In this document: positions 53,686 to 61,539 of the stretch, one piece after another
Layout of the letters: each line of letters begins with the position of its first letter
Position numbering within the stretch: the stretch's first letter is position 1
Assembly: GCF_014852585.1 (NCBI RefSeq)
Contig: NZ_JACVBX010000017.1
Coordinates: 1-64,000, forward strand
Direction: 5' to 3'
DNA from: Pseudomonas sp. PDM18
GTDB taxonomy: Bacteria; Pseudomonadota; Gammaproteobacteria; Pseudomonadales; Pseudomonadaceae
Length of the DNA: 64,000 nt
Program-made: the position numbers and the translations under genes
The notes under the pieces: generated by a model
What the model was told of the DNA's origin: nothing
The model's database searches: none
What the model saw: the letters and a program-made list of their open reading frames with translations, nothing else

Positions 53686-54552
53686 TCACTTGGCCAACGC
53701 CTGGGTTACCGCCTCCGGGTAGTAGGCGATCTTCAGGGTATGCGACTGCCCCATCAGTTGGCCGTTGCCGTACCAGGTGATGTTGTCCTGACGCAGCGTC
53801 ATGCCGTCGCTGCTGTATTCGTACTCGCCGCCGTTGGAAGTGCTGAAGGCAAAGCGCTCACTGTCCATCTGCTTCAGGTCGAAGCGGGTGCCGGGTGGCG
53901 GCATCATTTCCTTGACGCGTTTGAGGTAGGCGGGTGCCAGCTCGGAGAACAGCTCGCGGGTACGGGCCTGATACTGGGCGTCGGTTAGGCCAGGGGTCTG
54001 CTGCAGCTTCTCGGCGATCAGGATGAAGTACTCGGCATCGGTGCGGGCCAGGGCCATGCGCACGGCCATGACTTCGCCGAGACGGGCCTGGTCGACCTGG
54101 ACCTTGCCGTCGGCGCCTTTCTGCGGGGCGATGAATTCGTTGCCGTCCACCTGGATCATCGGCGCGGTCGCCAGGTAGGCGGCGCAGGCGATCTGCTGCC
54201 CGGCGCGGTTGCCGTTGACCAGCAGCGCGGTTACGCCGCCCTTCTCTTTCAGATGTTGCGTGGTCTCGCCACTGGCAGCGACGAAGCGGTCCACCTCCGC
54301 CTGGCTGGTTTCAGCGCGAGCCAGCCCGCAGATCTGCTGCATCACGGCGGGGTTGCGCTTGCCGTCCACCAGCGGGCTCATGCTGAACACAGCGTTGCGG
54401 ATGATCGGCAGTGCCGGATAGTCCAGCGTGCCCAGTTTCTGTTGGGTGGTCGTGGAGGCATGGCTAGCGGGAGCCTGATCGGAGCCTTTGCAGCCGGCCA
54501 GCAGGCAAACGGGAATCAACATCGCGGTCAGCCATTTGCTTTGAATGTTCAT
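53686..54552 (-). CDS. Lipoprotein at the end of the adhesin operon
   Basis: 288 residues from ATG 54552, preceded by GAGGAACACACC. Lipoprotein signal with lipobox LLAGC at about Cys20, then a Ser/Thr/Gln-rich linker and a mostly helical mature part with no familiar motif (TLRQDNITWYGNGQLMGQ near the end). It follows the TpgA-like gene by 10 bp and is terminated by the hairpin at 53642, so it is the last gene of the adhesin operon. Its role is unknown; assistance in adhesin assembly is a guess from context. Confidence 0.8.
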   Translation of the reverse strand: MNIQSKWLTAMLIPVCLLAGCKGSDQAPASHASTTTQQKLGTLDYPALPIIRNAVFSMSPLVDGKRNPAVMQQICGLARAETSQAEVDRFVAASGETTQHLKEKGGVTALLVNGNRAGQQIACAAYLATAPMIQVDGNEFIAPQKGADGKVQVDQARLGEVMAVRMALARTDAEYFILIAEKLQQTPGLTDAQYQARTRELFSELAPAYLKRVKEMMPPPGTRFDLKQMDSERFAFSTSNGGEYEYSSDGMTLRQDNITWYGNGQLMGQSHTLKIAYYPEAVTQALAK

Positions 54553-54562
54553 GGTGTGTTCC

Positions 54563-55390
54563 TCACTCTTGAGCTTGCGCCGCAACGGCGCTGGATTCGA
54601 TGACGACCCGGCGATCGGCCGCCAGGCAGTTGATCAGTTGGGCGCGCGGCATATCCGGGCAATCGGCGACCGGCTCGGCCGCCCCGGCACCACGTACGCG
54701 CATCGCAGCCGACGGCACGCCAGCGGCGGCCAGGTAGTTGCGCACCGCCTCGGCGCGACGGCGCGACAGGTCGAGGTTATAGGCGGGCGAACCGAGACGG
54801 TCGGTGTGGCCGCTGATGCTGATGCGCGACGGCTGCTGTGCTTTCAATTGTTCGGCCAGGGATGCCAGGCTTGCGCGGCCGGCAGGGCTGAGTTCGGCGC
54901 TGTTGAAGGCGAAAGTGGCATCACCGCCGAGGGTGACGCGCTGCGGGGCCGCAGGCACCGGCGCCGTCACGGGGGACTGCTGGGCAGGCCTGGCCTGATC
55001 CAGGCAGTCAACCGGCGAGAACAGGAAGGTCTGCGCCTGCATGTCCTTGTCGAACAGCACCTTGTACTGGCAGACCAGATCCTCGCGGCCGGCGCGGCGG
55101 AAGCGCAGGACATAGTCCCACTCGTGCACGCCGAACATGCCCTCCTGGAAGTGCGGGGTACCGAGCAGTTCGTAGAGCTGGGCCTTGCCCATGCCCGGCT
55201 GCACCTTGCCCAGGTTCTCCAGGTTCACGTAGCTGCCCTGAGGGCGATAGGAATCACTGATGGCGGGGAATTTAGGATCGGCACTATGGCCCTGGGCATC
55301 GACCACGCTGTGGCTGCCACAGGCCGCCAGCAGCAGACCGCTGCAGGCCAGAGCCAGGGTGCACAGGTTGCGGATATTGAAAGTATTCAT
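54563..55390 (-). CDS. TpgA-like BamE/SmpA-OmpA lipoprotein (adhesin-associated)
   Basis: 275 residues from ATG 55390, preceded by AGAGGAGGTCAAG. Lipobox LLAAC near Cys24. A BamE/SmpA-type segment (QPGMGKAQLYELLGTPHFQE, about 62-81) is joined to a C-terminal OmpA/Pal peptidoglycan-binding domain (FAFNSAELSPAG, ISGHTDRLGSPAYNLDLSRR, about 160-270). This fusion is the composition of TpgA, which helps biogenesis of the trimeric autotransporter AtaA in Acinetobacter. Here it directly follows the trimeric autotransporter gene (50 bp), supporting the same role. Confidence 0.85.
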   Translation of the reverse strand: MNTFNIRNLCTLALACSGLLLAACGSHSVVDAQGHSADPKFPAISDSYRPQGSYVNLENLGKVQPGMGKAQLYELLGTPHFQEGMFGVHEWDYVLRFRRAGREDLVCQYKVLFDKDMQAQTFLFSPVDCLDQARPAQQSPVTAPVPAAPQRVTLGGDATFAFNSAELSPAGRASLASLAEQLKAQQPSRISISGHTDRLGSPAYNLDLSRRRAEAVRNYLAAAGVPSAAMRVRGAGAAEPVADCPDMPRAQLINCLAADRRVVIESSAVAAQAQE

Positions 55391-55440
55391 CTTGACCTCC
55401 TCTGCGCGACCCGACCGGGGCCGGGCCGCGACGCAATGAC

Positions 55441-58400
55441 TTACCACTGGTAACCGAGACCGACGGCGACGCCGGCGTCACCCTGGCTGCTGGTGCTGCC
55501 CTGCAGCTTGGTGACCCACTTGCCGTTGTCGGAGATGCGCGAAACGCCAATCGCCAGGGCGCCCTGGCCGCGGTAGTTGCCCAGCCCGACGGTGGCCATG
55601 CTGGCCCCGGCCGAGTGCGGCTGCGGCAGGGTTGCCATGGCCATGGCCCCGGCGATACCGGCGCTGAGGATGTCGTCCTGTTTCTTCAGGTCGTGGCGCA
55701 GCGCGTTGTAGCGCGAGTCGGTGTAGTCGTAGAACTGGTTGGAGATGTCACCCATGCTTTGCTGCAACTGGCTGACGTTCACCGCGTCGGTCGGCGCAGT
55801 GCCGGCGGCGACGTTGGTGATCTGCCGCTCGTTGCCGGCGCTGCCCACCGAGACGCTGTTGGCGCGGTCGGCCACCGAGTTGGCGCCCACTGCCACCGAA
55901 TTCTGCGCCTGGGCGCTGGAGCCGTTGCCCAGGGCAGTGGAGTTGGCGCCGCTTGCCCGCGCACGGGTGCCGATGGCCGCACTGTTGTTGCCGGAAGCCT
56001 CTGCTCCCGCACCACCAGCCACCGCATCGGTGCCGGTGGGGCGCGGCTTGGGCAGGTTGCTGCTGTTGTTCACCTGGAACATGCCATCAGTGCCGTTCTG
56101 CAGCTGGGTGATGTCGGTCTTCGCCTGGGTGACGCGATTGTCGACGTTGTTGATGGTGCTGTTGATCGTGTCGCCGTGATCGCGCAGCTGGGAGACGTTG
56201 ACCGCATCGGTGTCGGCCTCGCCGGCCTTGACGTTAGTGATCTGCCGTTCGTTGCCGGCACTGCCCACCGAGACGCTGTTGTCGCGATCGGCCACCGAGT
56301 CGGCGCCCAGGGCCACGCTGTTGGCTGCCTCGGCACTGGCCCCGGCGCCGATGGCCGAGCTGCGCTCACCGGTGGCGGCAGCACCGTCACCCATGGCCAC
56401 CGAGGAACTGCCGGTGGCGCTGGCGCCGGTGCCCACCGCAGTGGCGCTATCCCCGCTGGCGGTTGCGCTGCTGCCAACCGCACTGGCGTTGCTGGCGCTG
56501 GCATTGGCGCCGTCCCCCATGGCCAGGGAAGAAGTCCCGGAAGCCTGGGCGGCCGGGCCGACGGCGATGGAATCAGTGCCGCTGGCGACCGAGTCGGGTT
56601 TCTGCGAGTTGGCGTGGAAGTACTTGAAGCCGCCCAAAGTGATGTTGTTGATCTGCGTGGTCACTTCGTAGAGCTGCGAGCCGTTCACCGCGTCGGTGGA
56701 AGTGGAGTTGATATCGCCGGCGGCGACGTTGGTGATCTTGCTCGGCCCACGCCCGCCGTGGTTGGCGTTGTAGGCACCGTTGCCGCCGTTGGCAGTCGGG
56801 TCCCAGAGCAGCGCATCCTGGCCCAGCTGGTCGGTGCGGTCGGCAACGCCCTTGAGTTGCGAGACGTTCACCGCGTCGGTTTCTTCCGCGCCTGCTGCAA
56901 CACCCGTGACACGCCGATTGCCGACGTTGACTTCACCCGTTGCGGTCCCGCCCACCAGGTACGCCTGATGCCCCAGGGTGCTGCCATCGGCGATGGAGCC
57001 GGCGCCCAGCGCCACGCTGCCGTCATGGCTGGATACAGCACCCATGCCGATGGCCACGGAATCCTGACCGAGGGCTGCCGAATCGGTGCCGGTGGAGTTG
57101 GCGTGGAAGTACTTGGTACCGGTTTTGTAGATGTTGTCGACGTGGTCGCCCAGATCGGAGACATCGCCTTCGACGTTGGTGACGCGACCGTCCAGGTTCG
57201 TGACCTGGGTGTTGGTTGCGGAGAGCTGCGAACCATTCACTGCGTCAGTGGAGGTGTCGTTGATATCACCGGCGGCGACGTTGGTGATCTTGTTCGGCCC
57301 AATGCCATAGTGGTTGGCGCTGAAGCTGTTGGTGCCCCAGTCCCAGAGCAGCGCGTCCTGGCTCAGTTGCTCGGCGCGGTCGGCAACGCCCCGCAGTTGC
57401 GAGACGTTCACCGCATCGGTGTCGTCGGCGCCGGCGGCGAGGTTGGTGATACGACGTTCTGCGTTGATTGCGCCGACCGAGACTTCGCCGGTCGCCAGCC
57501 CTCGGGGCGGATGGCCGCCCGCCATGTAGGCCGGTCTGTTCAGATCCGTCCCCGTGCTGCTGTTTGCGCCCAGCGCCACGCTGTTAGAAGTGCTGGCAGT
57601 GGCGTTGCGGCCCAGGGCAAGCGCGCTGTCTCCCGTCGCCTGAGCCTGGTAGCCAACCGCTGTGGAACCCTGGCCCCTGGCGTAGGCGTCTTCCACCGGC
57701 AGGCCGCTGTCGTTGGTGCGCACATAGCGGATGCCGCGACCGTTCAGGGTGACATTGCTGTCGCTGTCGTCACCGAAGACATTGCTCACGCGGTTGTCGA
57801 CATTGGTGACGTTCTGGTTGGTCTGGTGCAACTGCGAACCGTTGACTGCATCGGTGGAAGTGCTGTTGACGTCGCCCGCGGCGACATTGCTGATCTTGTT
57901 CGGGCCGCGTCCGCCATGATTGGCGCTGAACGCACCCTGGCCATTGTCGGCTGTCGGATCCCAGAGCAGTGCGTCCTGGGCCAGTTGGCCAGTTACACCC
58001 TTGAGCTGGGCGACGTTGACCGCATCGCTGTCCAGGGTGCCGGCGGCCAGGCCGGTGATCTGCCGGTAGTTGCCGGTGGTAGCGTCGCCCACGGCAATGG
58101 CGCCAAGGGTGCCGGTGGTTGCCATGATGGCGGCGGCGCGGTCCGGGGCCACGTTACTGGGCAGGTAGCCCTGCTGGCCGGCAACGGTGCCGGCCACGGA
58201 GCCCGAACCCAGGGCCACGCCGCCGGTGACGTTGGCCTGCGCACCGGTGCCCAGGGCCATGGCGTTCTGCTGGCTGGCTACAGCATCGTTGCCGATGGCG
58301 ACCGAGTCCTGTGCGGTGGCGCGAGTGCCGGTGGGGTTGCCGCTGGCATCGGTGCCAATATTGCCAATGGCCATGGAGTTGGTCGGGTTGGTGCCGAACT

Positions 58401-58851
58401 TGTTGTTCAGGCCGATGCGGCCGCCGTTGACGTACAGCTCGTTGCCCAGGGTCAGGGAGTCAGTGCCGTCGGTGCGGGCGCCAGAGCCATAGAAGAGGAC
58501 ACGGGCGGTCTGACTGGCCTTGTCGCTGGTCAGGCAGTTGGTGTTGTTGCTGTCGTACTTCCAGCCGGTGCTGCCGGTATCCCCGGTGTCGTGGACGAAG
58601 ATGCAACCCGAATCGTTGCTGGCATCATTGACGTAGAGGCCGGGATTGCCGGAAACACCCTTCTCGAAGGTCGACCCGTTCTTATACGGCGTCGCCGCGA
58701 AGGTCGAGGTCAGCGGGCTGCAAAGTATCGAGACGGCCAGCGTCCCGACCATCACACCGCGCCCCGTTTTGCGGTGCGCCGTGGCGAACTCCGAAGCGGC
58801 GACCCACGCATTACGCGTGGTACTCCAGACCAGACGATAAATCCTGTTCAT
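55441..58851 (-). CDS. Trimeric autotransporter adhesin (YadA/Hia type)
   Basis: 1136 residues. Begins with an extended signal peptide region MNRIYRLVWSTTRNAWVAAS. The passenger has YadA-head repeats of the SVAIGNDAVASQQNAMALGT type and eight DAVN(V/G)(S/A)QL neck motifs joining beta heads to coiled-coil stalk segments. HANS-containing modules (YFHANSTGTDS; YFHANSQKPDS) occur twice. The last 90 or so are a YadA-like membrane anchor ending VAVGLGYQW. It should form a homotrimeric surface fibre for attachment. Partners: TPR protein upstream, TpgA-like lipoprotein downstream. Confidence 0.95.
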   Translation of the reverse strand: MNRIYRLVWSTTRNAWVAASEFATAHRKTGRGVMVGTLAVSILCSPLTSTFAATPYKNGSTFEKGVSGNPGLYVNDASNDSGCIFVHDTGDTGSTGWKYDSNNTNCLTSDKASQTARVLFYGSGARTDGTDSLTLGNELYVNGGRIGLNNKFGTNPTNSMAIGNIGTDASGNPTGTRATAQDSVAIGNDAVASQQNAMALGTGAQANVTGGVALGSGSVAGTVAGQQGYLPSNVAPDRAAAIMATTGTLGAIAVGDATTGNYRQITGLAAGTLDSDAVNVAQLKGVTGQLAQDALLWDPTADNGQGAFSANHGGRGPNKISNVAAGDVNSTSTDAVNGSQLHQTNQNVTNVDNRVSNVFGDDSDSNVTLNGRGIRYVRTNDSGLPVEDAYARGQGSTAVGYQAQATGDSALALGRNATASTSNSVALGANSSTGTDLNRPAYMAGGHPPRGLATGEVSVGAINAERRITNLAAGADDTDAVNVSQLRGVADRAEQLSQDALLWDWGTNSFSANHYGIGPNKITNVAAGDINDTSTDAVNGSQLSATNTQVTNLDGRVTNVEGDVSDLGDHVDNIYKTGTKYFHANSTGTDSAALGQDSVAIGMGAVSSHDGSVALGAGSIADGSTLGHQAYLVGGTATGEVNVGNRRVTGVAAGAEETDAVNVSQLKGVADRTDQLGQDALLWDPTANGGNGAYNANHGGRGPSKITNVAAGDINSTSTDAVNGSQLYEVTTQINNITLGGFKYFHANSQKPDSVASGTDSIAVGPAAQASGTSSLAMGDGANASASNASAVGSSATASGDSATAVGTGASATGSSSVAMGDGAAATGERSSAIGAGASAEAANSVALGADSVADRDNSVSVGSAGNERQITNVKAGEADTDAVNVSQLRDHGDTINSTINNVDNRVTQAKTDITQLQNGTDGMFQVNNSSNLPKPRPTGTDAVAGGAGAEASGNNSAAIGTRARASGANSTALGNGSSAQAQNSVAVGANSVADRANSVSVGSAGNERQITNVAAGTAPTDAVNVSQLQQSMGDISNQFYDYTDSRYNALRHDLKKQDDILSAGIAGAMAMATLPQPHSAGASMATVGLGNYRGQGALAIGVSRISDNGKWVTKLQGSTSSQGDAGVAVGLGYQW

Positions 58852-58898: not shown

Positions 58899-59768
58899 TC
58901 AGCGGGAGGACAGCTGCAGGGCGCGGCTGGACTGGATCAGTTGCGGGCGCTCCATGGCGGTCGGGCGCGACTGCTGCAGCGCGCGCTCGTACAGGCGCAG
59001 CGCGCCGGCGTGGTCCTGGCGGACGTAGTCGAGATAACCGCCGGCGAACAGCCCGGCCTCGGTGCGCAGGTCACGCTTGACCGCGTCGGGGGCCTGCAGG
59101 CCATCGATCTGGGCGAACACCGCAGAGCTGTCGGACTTGCCCTGGAACAGCGCGAGCATGGCGCGCTGGTGCTCGTCGACCGGCTTGATGGCGCGGGCGA
59201 GTTTCTCCACACGCGCCTTGGTAACAGCCGGTTTGACGCCGACGTCGCTGGCCTGGCGGGCGGTTACCCAAAGGTTCCAGAGGCCGGCGTAGGCCTGGAC
59301 CTGCGGATTGGGAGAGGTTTTCTGCAGTTCGGCGAAGGCCTTGCCGGCCTGGTCGAAGCGGCCCAGTGCGGCGAGGTTCACTGCTGACGGCAAGGCGATC
59401 ACCGTCGCCTGGTCGCTGCCCTTGAGAGCGTCGTAGAACTGCCGGGCACGCATGTGGCGGCCGCCGGCATCCTCAATGAAGGCCTGCTCGGCCAGGGCTC
59501 GGCTGCCGCCCTGCCCTTGCGCGCCGGCTTCGCGCAGCAGCGCCTGGGCCGAGGCAAGGTCGCCTTCGAGCAGTTGCTGGTGAGCCAGCAGCACCAGGGG
59601 GTGAGTGACCTGTTGCGCGACGGGCTGTGCGCCTTGTTGAGCGGGAGCCTGCGGCGCAGGTTGGACCGGGCCGGCCAGGGCCGAGCCAGTGGCGACCAGC
59701 AAGGCCAGGGCGAGGGCGGAAAGCTTGCCGGAGCGACTGCAGCCGGCGGTTTTAGAGGGATGGTTCAT
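58899..59768 (-). CDS. Periplasmic TPR-like protein of the adhesin operon
   Basis: 289 residues with a signal peptide ending ATGSALAG, then a Pro/Gln/Ala-rich linker (PVQPAPQAPAQQGAQPVAQQ). The rest is paired helices of TPR form: LLAHQQLLEGDLASAQALLR, AALGRFDQAGKAFAELQK, DYVRQDHAGALRLYERALQQ. It precedes the adhesin gene by 47 bp on the same strand, so it is likely co-transcribed and may help export or assembly (inference). No catalytic motif. Confidence 0.82.
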   Translation of the reverse strand: MNHPSKTAGCSRSGKLSALALALLVATGSALAGPVQPAPQAPAQQGAQPVAQQVTHPLVLLAHQQLLEGDLASAQALLREAGAQGQGGSRALAEQAFIEDAGGRHMRARQFYDALKGSDQATVIALPSAVNLAALGRFDQAGKAFAELQKTSPNPQVQAYAGLWNLWVTARQASDVGVKPAVTKARVEKLARAIKPVDEHQRAMLALFQGKSDSSAVFAQIDGLQAPDAVKRDLRTEAGLFAGGYLDYVRQDHAGALRLYERALQQSRPTAMERPQLIQSSRALQLSSR

Positions 59769-59871
59769 GGCGGCAACTCCTGTAAAGGTTCGAGTTACCG
59801 CCCTGCTAGGAAGGGCGGAGGCAAAGCGAACTCAGAGTCCTCCCCGCTCCACCATCAGAGTTTTTCCGCAG

Positions 59872-61458
59872 TCAGGAGAGCGCCGCCAGCGCCAGTTCCA
59901 GCTCCAGGTCGACGGCCATGCACTCAGCGCTGCGCTCGATGCCCATGCGCGCATTCAGTCGCTGCGCCAGGCGCCGCACGTACTGCTGGAGAATGAGGCT
60001 GTGCGCTCCCCCCATACCCCGCAGCTCCAATCGCACCAGCAGCTGTCCTTGCTGCACCGCCCGAGCCGCGAGCGTGATCTCCTGAGGCTCGCCCAACAGC
60101 TCCAGCACGCCGCTCAGCCACTGGGCGAACAGCTCGGCATCCAGCCAGCCATGCATCGGCTGCAGATTGCTGTTATCGAAGCGGCAGCCGGGATACGCCG
60201 CCAGGCAGGACTCGATGACTGACGCCGGATCGCACGGGCGCAGCGCCGGCGCAGGATGATCCTCGCGCGGATTGCTGGTGCTGCGAAGCCTGCGCAGCGC
60301 TTCGAAGACGCCAGCCAGACCCGGTGTCGCCGGGTGCAGTTCGAGGCCCGCCAGGCGCGCGGTCAACTCCTCCAGCGCCACCGTGCTGATCTCGCGGAGG
60401 CGATGCAGTTGCGCTTCGGCGGCCAGGGCGCGATCCCGCCATTCGAGCAACTCGCTCTCGCTGTCGGTAACGTCCTGCAAGCCGCCGAGGACACCCCTGG
60501 GCTGCCCGCTGCTATCACGGCAAGGCACCATCCAGGCGTGGACCACGCGGTTCCTGCCGGAAAAGTCGATTCGCAGGGTGGACGAAACCGGCTCACCTTT
60601 CTCGACGAGGTTGGAAAATTTCCCGGGCAGGGAGTCGCGGTATTGCCGCGGCAACCAAGGGCTGTCTTCCAGACGCGTCCCCAAGGCCTCATCCGCGCTG
60701 ACCTGGTGGTAGTCAAGGAATCGCTGGTTGCAGAACAGCAGGCGACCGTCGACGCCGCGCACGTACATCGGATTGGGCGCAGCATCCACCAGCTCGCGCA
60801 GCATGCCGATCTCGGCCGGCAGCGGCTCGGCCACCGCCGCGCCGGATGGGAAGCCGGCCACCAGGCCGTTGCGCCGGGCGATCTCCGCCAGTTCGACGCT
60901 GGAGCGAACACGCAGCTTTTCCAGCAGGTGCGCCTTGTAGGTGCTGACCGTCTTGAAGCTGATGCGCAGCTGCTCGGCAATGCGCACGTTCGACTGCCCT
61001 TCGGCGATAAGCTGCAGCACCGACAGCTCGCGCGGGGTAAGACTGCCCAGCACATCCCCGGGACCGGACTGCATGTGCTCGCGGGCGAAGTGGCCGCGTC
61101 CAGCCAGCACATCGGCGATGGCCTTGCGCAGCAGCGCAGTATCCTCGCTCTTGCTGACGAAGCCGCTGGCGCCGGCCTGGAAGCACAGCGGGGCGAAGTG
61201 CGCCGGGTTCTGCCGGCTGTAGACCAGCACCTTCTGTCGCGCATCCCGCGCGCGCAGGCGGCGCAGCAGATCGAGCCCGCCGGCCCCCGGCAGGCTCAGT
61301 TCAAGGATCACCAGGTCCGGCCGGTTTTCCCGTGCCAGGCTCAATGCCGTGGGCACATCGACCGACTCCCCCGCCACCTCGTGACCCATTTCCTCCAGCA
61401 ACGTGCGCAAGGCATCGCGCACAATCGGTGTCGCATCCGCGAGCAAAACCCTGGCCAT
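59872..61458 (-). CDS. Atypical response regulator: degenerate REC - LuxR HTH - PAS
   Basis: 528 residues. REC at 1-125 looks folded (Lys103 in FVSKSED; Thr/Ser region VLVYSRQ) but the phospho-acceptor position reads VILEL (Glu53 in place of Asp), and the acidic pair at the start is LLADAT with only Asp8. A LuxR/GerE HTH is at 139-200 (TPRELSVLQLIAEGQSNVRI, FKTVSTYKAHLLEKL). A PAS domain follows (about 218-345: DAAPNPMYVRGVDGRLLFCN), then a helical/alpha-beta tail (about 350-528) that may be a degenerate kinase-type module. Located just upstream of the adhesin operon. Phosphorylation-independent or Glu-activated control is likely. Confidence 0.85.
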   Translation of the reverse strand: MARVLLADATPIVRDALRTLLEEMGHEVAGESVDVPTALSLARENRPDLVILELSLPGAGGLDLLRRLRARDARQKVLVYSRQNPAHFAPLCFQAGASGFVSKSEDTALLRKAIADVLAGRGHFAREHMQSGPGDVLGSLTPRELSVLQLIAEGQSNVRIAEQLRISFKTVSTYKAHLLEKLRVRSSVELAEIARRNGLVAGFPSGAAVAEPLPAEIGMLRELVDAAPNPMYVRGVDGRLLFCNQRFLDYHQVSADEALGTRLEDSPWLPRQYRDSLPGKFSNLVEKGEPVSSTLRIDFSGRNRVVHAWMVPCRDSSGQPRGVLGGLQDVTDSESELLEWRDRALAAEAQLHRLREISTVALEELTARLAGLELHPATPGLAGVFEALRRLRSTSNPREDHPAPALRPCDPASVIESCLAAYPGCRFDNSNLQPMHGWLDAELFAQWLSGVLELLGEPQEITLAARAVQQGQLLVRLELRGMGGAHSLILQQYVRRLAQRLNARMGIERSAECMAVDLELELALAALS

Positions 61459-61539
61459 AGCTACCCTGCCCCGAGCCGGTTTCAGTCCGCAACAGCATAG
61501 GCACCACCGACCATCTGTGCAGCGCGGTTATCGAGCAGA

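Follow-up and report, generated by a model that had tools for sequence, protein, structure and literature searches.

A receiver without its phospho-acceptor, on one chain with a kinase-derived tail, as probable local regulator of a Pseudomonas trimeric adhesin operon

What can a response regulator do whose receiver carries glutamate where phosphate should be accepted, and whose DNA-binding domain lies in the middle of the chain? The question is raised by a gene of Pseudomonas sp. PDM18, within a stretch of 64,000 nucleotides the whole of which is here called the window. The answer favoured, at a probability of roughly 0.55, is that its product is a phosphorylation-independent local regulator of the adjoining adhesin operon. 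The gene and the parts of its product are these:

59872 to 61458, minus strand: regulator gene, 528 amino acids, with pseudo-receiver, LuxR helix-turn-helix, PAS domain and putative pseudo-kinase tail (open reading frame, Pfam)
61117 to 61449, minus strand: receiver domain, amino acids 4-114 (Pfam Response_reg PF00072, E 1.2e-19)
61432 to 61434, minus strand: codon 9, alanine where the second Mg-binding acid is expected (translation, alignment)
61300 to 61302, minus strand: codon 53, GAA, glutamate at the phospho-acceptor position (sequence, translation, alignment)
60877 to 61044, minus strand: LuxR/GerE helix-turn-helix, amino acids 139-194 (PF00196, E 1.2e-19)
60460 to 60804, minus strand: PAS domain, amino acids 219-333 (PAS_4 PF08448, E 9.4e-13; PF00989)
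59875 to 60441, minus strand: tail, amino acids 340-528, apparently a decayed DHp/HATPase core (alignment with relatives that keep the HATPase; hhalign)

The sequence-only reading that drew attention to this gene had its open reading frame, coordinates and strand right. Its glutamate at the phospho-acceptor site also stands. Residue 53 is a GAA codon, and glutamate is kept in 12 of 13 orthologous loci (L016 has aspartate), which together rule out an error or a misplaced site. [The 13 loci are the window, L009-L016, L158 and L160-L162; L155, L156, L157 and L159 are taken as identical to loci already counted and lie outside the 13. The closest named loci are those of P. nitroreducens (82% identity) and Pseudomonas sp. 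CAN1 (81%).] Translation and alignment give Asp8, Ala9, Glu53, Ser81 and Lys103, so that one Mg-binding acid is indeed missing and the lysine kept. The domain scores above the PF00072 cut-off yet has E53 instead of phospho-Asp, which makes it a pseudo-receiver, and the acids of the NarL/FixJ type are incomplete, with E53 in place of phospho-Asp and A9 in place of one Mg-binding acid. The order of receiver, helix-turn-helix, PAS and tail is confirmed by Pfam, the helix-turn-helix at 139-194 of 528 residues being not C-terminal but followed by PAS and tail; the description of this order as unusual needs qualifying, since a mid-protein helix-turn-helix is common to the relatives found here. In sequence searches of the PDB, the nearest solved chain to the receiver and helix-turn-helix part is EvgA (5f64), and residues 211-338 match the PAS domain of BvgS (6zj8). 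The NCBIfam EvgA model scores the regulator at 113 bits, far under its cut-off of 251. An anti-phage role was considered and set aside, two PADLOC matches being confined to the helix-turn-helix region, and plasmid copies of the regulator gave no match at E 1e-40.

The regulator has many relatives. Matches to it at E 1e-50 occur in 21 of 56 genomes, its own included, all of one genus, and its own genome encodes five further proteins that align over receiver, helix-turn-helix and PAS (L002-L006). With a family profile and a threshold of E 1e-75, the best 5 candidates per genome being scored, at least 22 of 25 same-genus genomes, the own genome included, have a match over the full length (about positions 1-580 of 582), as do at least 8 of the 223 remaining Pseudomonadaceae genomes. 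Among 369 genomes sampled across the class, with the best 3 candidates scored, the own genome alone appears at 1e-100 among the matches listed. The regulator, itself a row of the profile, gives E 4e-202 over positions 1-580 of 582. Members were picked by whole-length cut-offs (1e-50, 1e-75), which favours close relatives, and 96 full-length rows less 3 duplicates and 4 hybrid kinases of other architecture leave 89 members. L053, whose tail is odd in the alignment, is kept among these 89; it is a member (L053:9810-11210) with a shortened kinase part and an unrelated-looking tail, adjoining an autotransporter.

The receiver pocket is retained across the family in a particular way. Glutamate at 53, whose conservation among homologues had been proposed as a check, is present in 59 of the 89 aligned members; 29 have aspartate and 1 has alanine. 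Aspartate homologues, which the sequence-only reading had counted as speaking against it, therefore do exist (29 of 89, and 1 of the 13 orthologous loci), but the glutamate is not a one-off. Position 53 is acidic in 88 of 89 members, as is position 8; position 9 is acidic in 43. Threonine or serine at 81 is invariant (89 of 89), and Lys103 is missing in a single member (88 of 89). Of the 29 members with Asp53, twelve retain the acid at 9, and in these phosphorylation may still take place; the other 17 are without the second Mg-binding acid.

Behind the PAS domain, the tail alone matches no Pfam family, and a search of the PDB with its profile gave no match beyond one chance-level hit. The HATPase derivation that had been suspected for it gains support from profile comparison with relatives that keep the ATP-binding boxes (hhalign 97.6%, E 4e-12 for one chosen target, 145 columns, the comparison having set against each other regions already thought to correspond), though the single-sequence comparison is weak (5.4%). 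Alignment with relatives keeping the HATPase shows that in the clade of the window the N and G boxes are gone and the ATP lid is deleted, and the phospho-accepting histidine is absent from the DHp column of the window protein. Among the 89 members, in counts that depend on one alignment, this column holds histidine in 5, with a proper SHE-like box in 3 of them (L126, L129, L130); the replacements are varied (R, S, D, E, T and others). Thirty-four members retain the N and G boxes. No member of the 89 combines Asp53, the histidine and both boxes, and it is on this account that the members look like single-chain pseudo-two-component proteins. The loss appears graded: a HATPase domain is recognisable by Pfam at the end of longer members (L003, L103, L129), falls under the Pfam cut-off in L056 and gives no match at all in L057, L141 and L151. 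The tail is thus, as far as alignments can tell, a decayed histidine-kinase core. The family looks like an EvgA/BvgA-like response regulator joined to a PAS-DHp-HATPase sensor-kinase part, with phosphotransfer later lost, and we infer that it originated by fusion of EvgA-like and BvgS-like parts.

What the regulator might act on is suggested by its neighbours. Reading on from the regulator gene, the order is TPR, adhesin, BamE/OmpA lipoprotein and second lipoprotein:

58899 to 59768, minus strand: TPR-like protein, encoded at the head of the adhesin operon (24.5 bits with TPR_19, whose cut-off is 25)
55441 to 58851, minus strand: trimeric autotransporter adhesin with ESPR, YadA head, stalk and anchor (Pfam)
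54563 to 55447, minus strand: lipoprotein with BamE and OmpA domains, likely start 55390 (Pfam)
53686 to 54585, minus strand: lipoprotein-like protein with no family match, likely start 54552

The regulator had been placed directly before a trimeric adhesin operon. The adhesin is there, but the immediate neighbour of the regulator is the TPR-like gene. The link itself is conserved: in 13 of 13 orthologous loci the regulator lies ahead of a trimeric adhesin on the same strand, with a TPR gene between them in 12 (L158 has no TPR match). In all 8 relatives examined, the BamE/OmpA lipoprotein and the second lipoprotein-like family follow the adhesin. The LysR and aldehyde dehydrogenase genes that lie alongside in the window recur in 3 of these 8; the outer neighbours vary and the regulator-adhesin pair is kept. 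Adhesin length ranges from about 950 to 1570 codons among orthologous loci (L038-L045, window 55441-58851).

Similar company is kept by most of the family. Of the 89 members, 57 have a type V passenger no more than 2 kb away (27 autotransporters, 13 two-partner exoproteins and 17 trimeric adhesins), and trimeric adhesin sequence that reaches the end of the stretch is found near two more, L119 (about 6 kb) and L121 (about 2 kb), making 59 of 89 in all. These assignments were made with small HMMs built in this analysis, on context genes called by a custom script; Pfam confirmed 10 of 10 passengers checked, six of them HMM seeds and four not (L047, L139, L140, L153). Of the 57 passengers, 35 follow the family member on its own strand and 1 precedes it there, 17 are divergent (among them L050, although it overlaps) and 4 convergent. 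The kind or presence of partner changes 13 times on the tree, L069 being left out. The own genome holds 13 type V passengers, and 4 of its 6 family members are within 8 kb of one, against none of 54 other receiver or helix-turn-helix matches (Fisher p 3e-5). Because most relatives adjoin genes for secreted surface proteins, the regulator is probably their local phosphate-independent switch. In four loci (L070, L114, L119, L120), a Glu-type member, with a trimeric adhesin, has an EvgS-like/EvgA-like pair beside it; the hybrid kinase of L120 is ordered PAS-HisKA-HATPase-REC-Hpt. Elsewhere in the window (12994-15162, minus strand), a predicted tyrosine phosphatase (PF13350) is joined to an autotransporter beta-domain (PF03797), with the phosphatase as secreted passenger.

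Thirty members have no visible passenger: 23 that keep the ATP boxes, 6 with decayed boxes, and L069, whose neighbours cannot be judged on a 4.6-kb contig (its dropped duplicate L112 has a trimeric adhesin downstream). For 23 of the 34 box-keeping members, then, there is no type V gene within the stretch examined. Sixteen of the 23, in 15 loci, sit in a urate-type locus, where a polysaccharide-deacetylase-family gene (which we take to be PuuE-like) is accompanied by genes for HIU hydrolase and a xanthine/uracil permease; the family therefore does not consist of type V regulators alone. The other seven comprise four in two loci with the permease alone and three with neither. [The urate-type loci are L051, L060-L063, L068, L102-L109 and L111, and their members have Glu receivers, intact ATP boxes and no phospho-His. 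There are two tandem family copies in L051, and tandem copies also near the permease in L064 and L065.] A causal tie between HATPase decay and type V linkage was rejected, the correlation resting on only two changes on the tree.

A wider reading of the whole family can be offered tentatively, with somewhat less than an even chance. Its members would be single-chain two-component systems without phosphotransfer, in which the kinase half serves as an allosteric PAS/nucleotide sensor gating its own DNA-binding half, and much of the family would now be type V regulators that have exchanged one partner for another, whether autotransporter, two-partner exoprotein or trimeric adhesin. The grounds for an allosteric sensor are that conservation of the acid pocket, and of the ATP boxes in one branch, has outlasted the aspartate and the histidine.

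The history of position 53 bears on how the receiver would work. Parsimony with aspartate at the root, on a quick tree with 14 open forks and with three outgroup regulators that do not form one clade in the parsimony run, gives ten changes (five D-to-E, four E-to-D and one E-to-A), and the starred branches alone demand at least 8 to 9. Nine of the ten swap aspartate and glutamate and so leave position 53 acidic; if all single-base changes were equally likely, a crude null, the probability of this would be about 1e-5. An acid thus appears to be under constraint here, unlike the phosphorylation machinery. This toggling suggests that a carboxylate at 53, rather than glutamate as such, is required. 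The sequence-only reading had glutamate mimic phospho-aspartate, so that the protein might be always on. In this form, with Glu53 a true mimic, the receiver constitutively active and the PAS domain switching it off or on, the idea seems unlikely. Glu53 with Thr/Ser81 and Lys103 retained is what a mimic needs, the change from aspartate to glutamate is inferred about five times, and passages of PMC12632262 and PMC4395418 describe partial activation of several regulators by such a change. Against it are the four inferred reversals, the 29 Asp53 members (17 of them without the second Mg-binding acid) and ChxR, which, in a passage of PMC4395418, still binds DNA after its glutamate is changed to aspartate or alanine. 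Two of the four reversals (L045, L139) lack the second Mg-binding acid, and for this reason the conserved feature looks like a carboxylate and not a phosphate mimic, and mimicry is possible but less likely than a local phosphorylation-independent regulator. Always-on activity through mimicry is accordingly not borne out by the homologues.

Lower still are the chances that the pseudo-receiver protein heterodimerises with a canonical EvgA-like regulator that is phosphorylated elsewhere. There is a precedent in WhiI and BldM (as presented in part of PMC12632262), an EvgS-like hybrid kinase and an EvgA-like regulator adjoin the L114, L119, L120 and L070 members, and the own genome has related short regulators (L007, L008) with aspartate at the position-53 site. 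However, no such pair was seen in the other contexts searched, at the cut-offs applied, where L069 (at a contig end) has the kinase alone and L121 the EvgA-like regulator alone. Plain decay, with receiver and kinase parts as drifting remnants and only helix-turn-helix and PAS of consequence, would suit the many ways in which kinase core residues have been lost (R, S, D, E, T and others at the histidine column), but is most improbable given the acid at 53 (88 of 89), Lys103 (88 of 89), Thr/Ser81 (89 of 89) and the nine Asp/Glu swaps among ten changes (about 1e-5 under the crude null).

The spacer between the regulator and TPR genes, where the regulator would bind, has conserved elements:

59769 to 59871, minus strand: regulator-TPR spacer, a conserved promoter-like region of the adhesin operon (alignment of 13 loci)
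59853 to 59862, minus strand: AACTCTGATG, repeating the candidate operator half upstream at a distance of 23 bp (roughly half of the loci have variants)
59828 to 59840, minus strand: GGACTCTGAGTTC, candidate operator where a -35 element would lie (10 of 13 loci have it unchanged)
59803 to 59808, minus strand: -10-like hexamer, TAGCAG here and TAGCAT in the other 12 loci (alignment of 13 loci)

The candidate operator carries one or two changes in L038, L043 and L045. After the -10-like hexamer, GCAACTCGAA and GGAGTTGCC flank the Shine-Dalgarno site of the TPR gene in the 13-locus alignment. In the own genome there are one exact and two one-mismatch copies of GGACTCTGAGTTC, and these three are to be compared with five for a control pattern. 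The site is thus not enriched, and nothing points to a wider regulon. That the 13-bp site is unique in the genome was discarded as evidence, since chance would give a 13-mer fewer than one copy and the count with one mismatch lies below the control. A two-part operator pattern, its spacer set one base too long, had no match. The candidate operator could serve another regulator. In 28 loci of five other groups, alignment reveals conserved spacer blocks of their own, clade by clade, such as the GTAGGAA..TTTCCTAC-type palindromes beside divergent autotransporters, and it is presumably to such blocks that the regulators of the family bind.

An 11-bp hairpin can form over the TPR Shine-Dalgarno (59769-59802, minus strand; -21.2 kcal/mol, z -4.27) and its sequence is conserved. 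It was not accepted as a proven RNA switch: none of 6 pairs is compensatory, and two pairs are each broken in 1 of 9 sequences. All 13 loci have a -10-like element, CCTATGCT (61494-61501, minus strand), ahead of the regulator's own start; inspection by eye showed no conserved -35 to go with it.

Under the favoured reading of local, phosphorylation-independent control, the carboxylate at 53 (usually glutamate), with Thr/Ser81 and Lys103, would probably fix the receiver in one conformation, and the LuxR helix-turn-helix would bind the promoter between the regulator gene and the TPR gene. The signal would come in from the C-terminal side by way of the pseudo-kinase dimerisation region and the PAS domain, whose role as a gate is plausible. 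As the candidate site overlaps the -35 position, our guess as to direction is activation of the adhesin operon. Directly visible in the sequences are the architecture, the absence of both phospho-acceptors, the conservation, the linkage of the genes and the conserved spacer; fusion origin, DNA binding at the spacer, receiver conformation, direction of regulation and PAS signal are proposed.

Each half of the protein has known counterparts. BvgA is a NarL/FixJ response regulator of the EvgA type, and regulators of this type are the best matches to the receiver and helix-turn-helix (EvgA 5f64); in contrast to them, the present regulator is without phospho-Asp and has about 320 extra residues behind the helix-turn-helix. 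The PAS domain resembles that of BvgS, and the order PAS-DHp-HATPase is that of the BvgS/EvgS hybrid kinases, but the family puts receiver and helix-turn-helix first, has no Hpt and is non-His at the histidine column in 84 of 89 members. Aspartate-less receivers (PMC4395418, PMC12632262) are alike in that phospho-Asp is replaced, most commonly by glutamate (26%), and the second triad acid often lost (PMC4395418); activity does not in every case stem from this glutamate (PMC4395418, PMC12632262). The family differs in having its receiver on one chain with PAS and pseudo-kinase, and in toggling between Asp and Glu within the family. According to PMC12632262, Asp is missing from 2.0% of receivers and His from 0.9% of HisKA domains, and the switching mechanisms of pseudo-receivers are there said to "remain a mystery". 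Pseudo-histidine kinases of the DivL type (from the same part of PMC12632262) likewise have a kinase core that is short of a catalytic part yet wired into signalling, but the pseudo-kinase of this family sits behind its own DNA-binding pseudo-receiver. Among the papers listed when the open-licence PMC literature was searched on its parts, no description of the fused family or of its type V linkage was found.

Aspartate-less receivers and pseudo-kinases are, then, each known. Here 60 of 89 members are without the aspartate and 84 of 89 without the histidine on one chain, natural Asp/Glu changes are repeated, and an obvious candidate target adjoins. This combination makes two questions directly testable, namely whether glutamate serves as a phosphate mimic or merely as an acid, and in what way a pseudo-kinase can gate a pseudo-receiver. 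For Pseudomonas, the finding proposes a regulator for many of its type V surface proteins.
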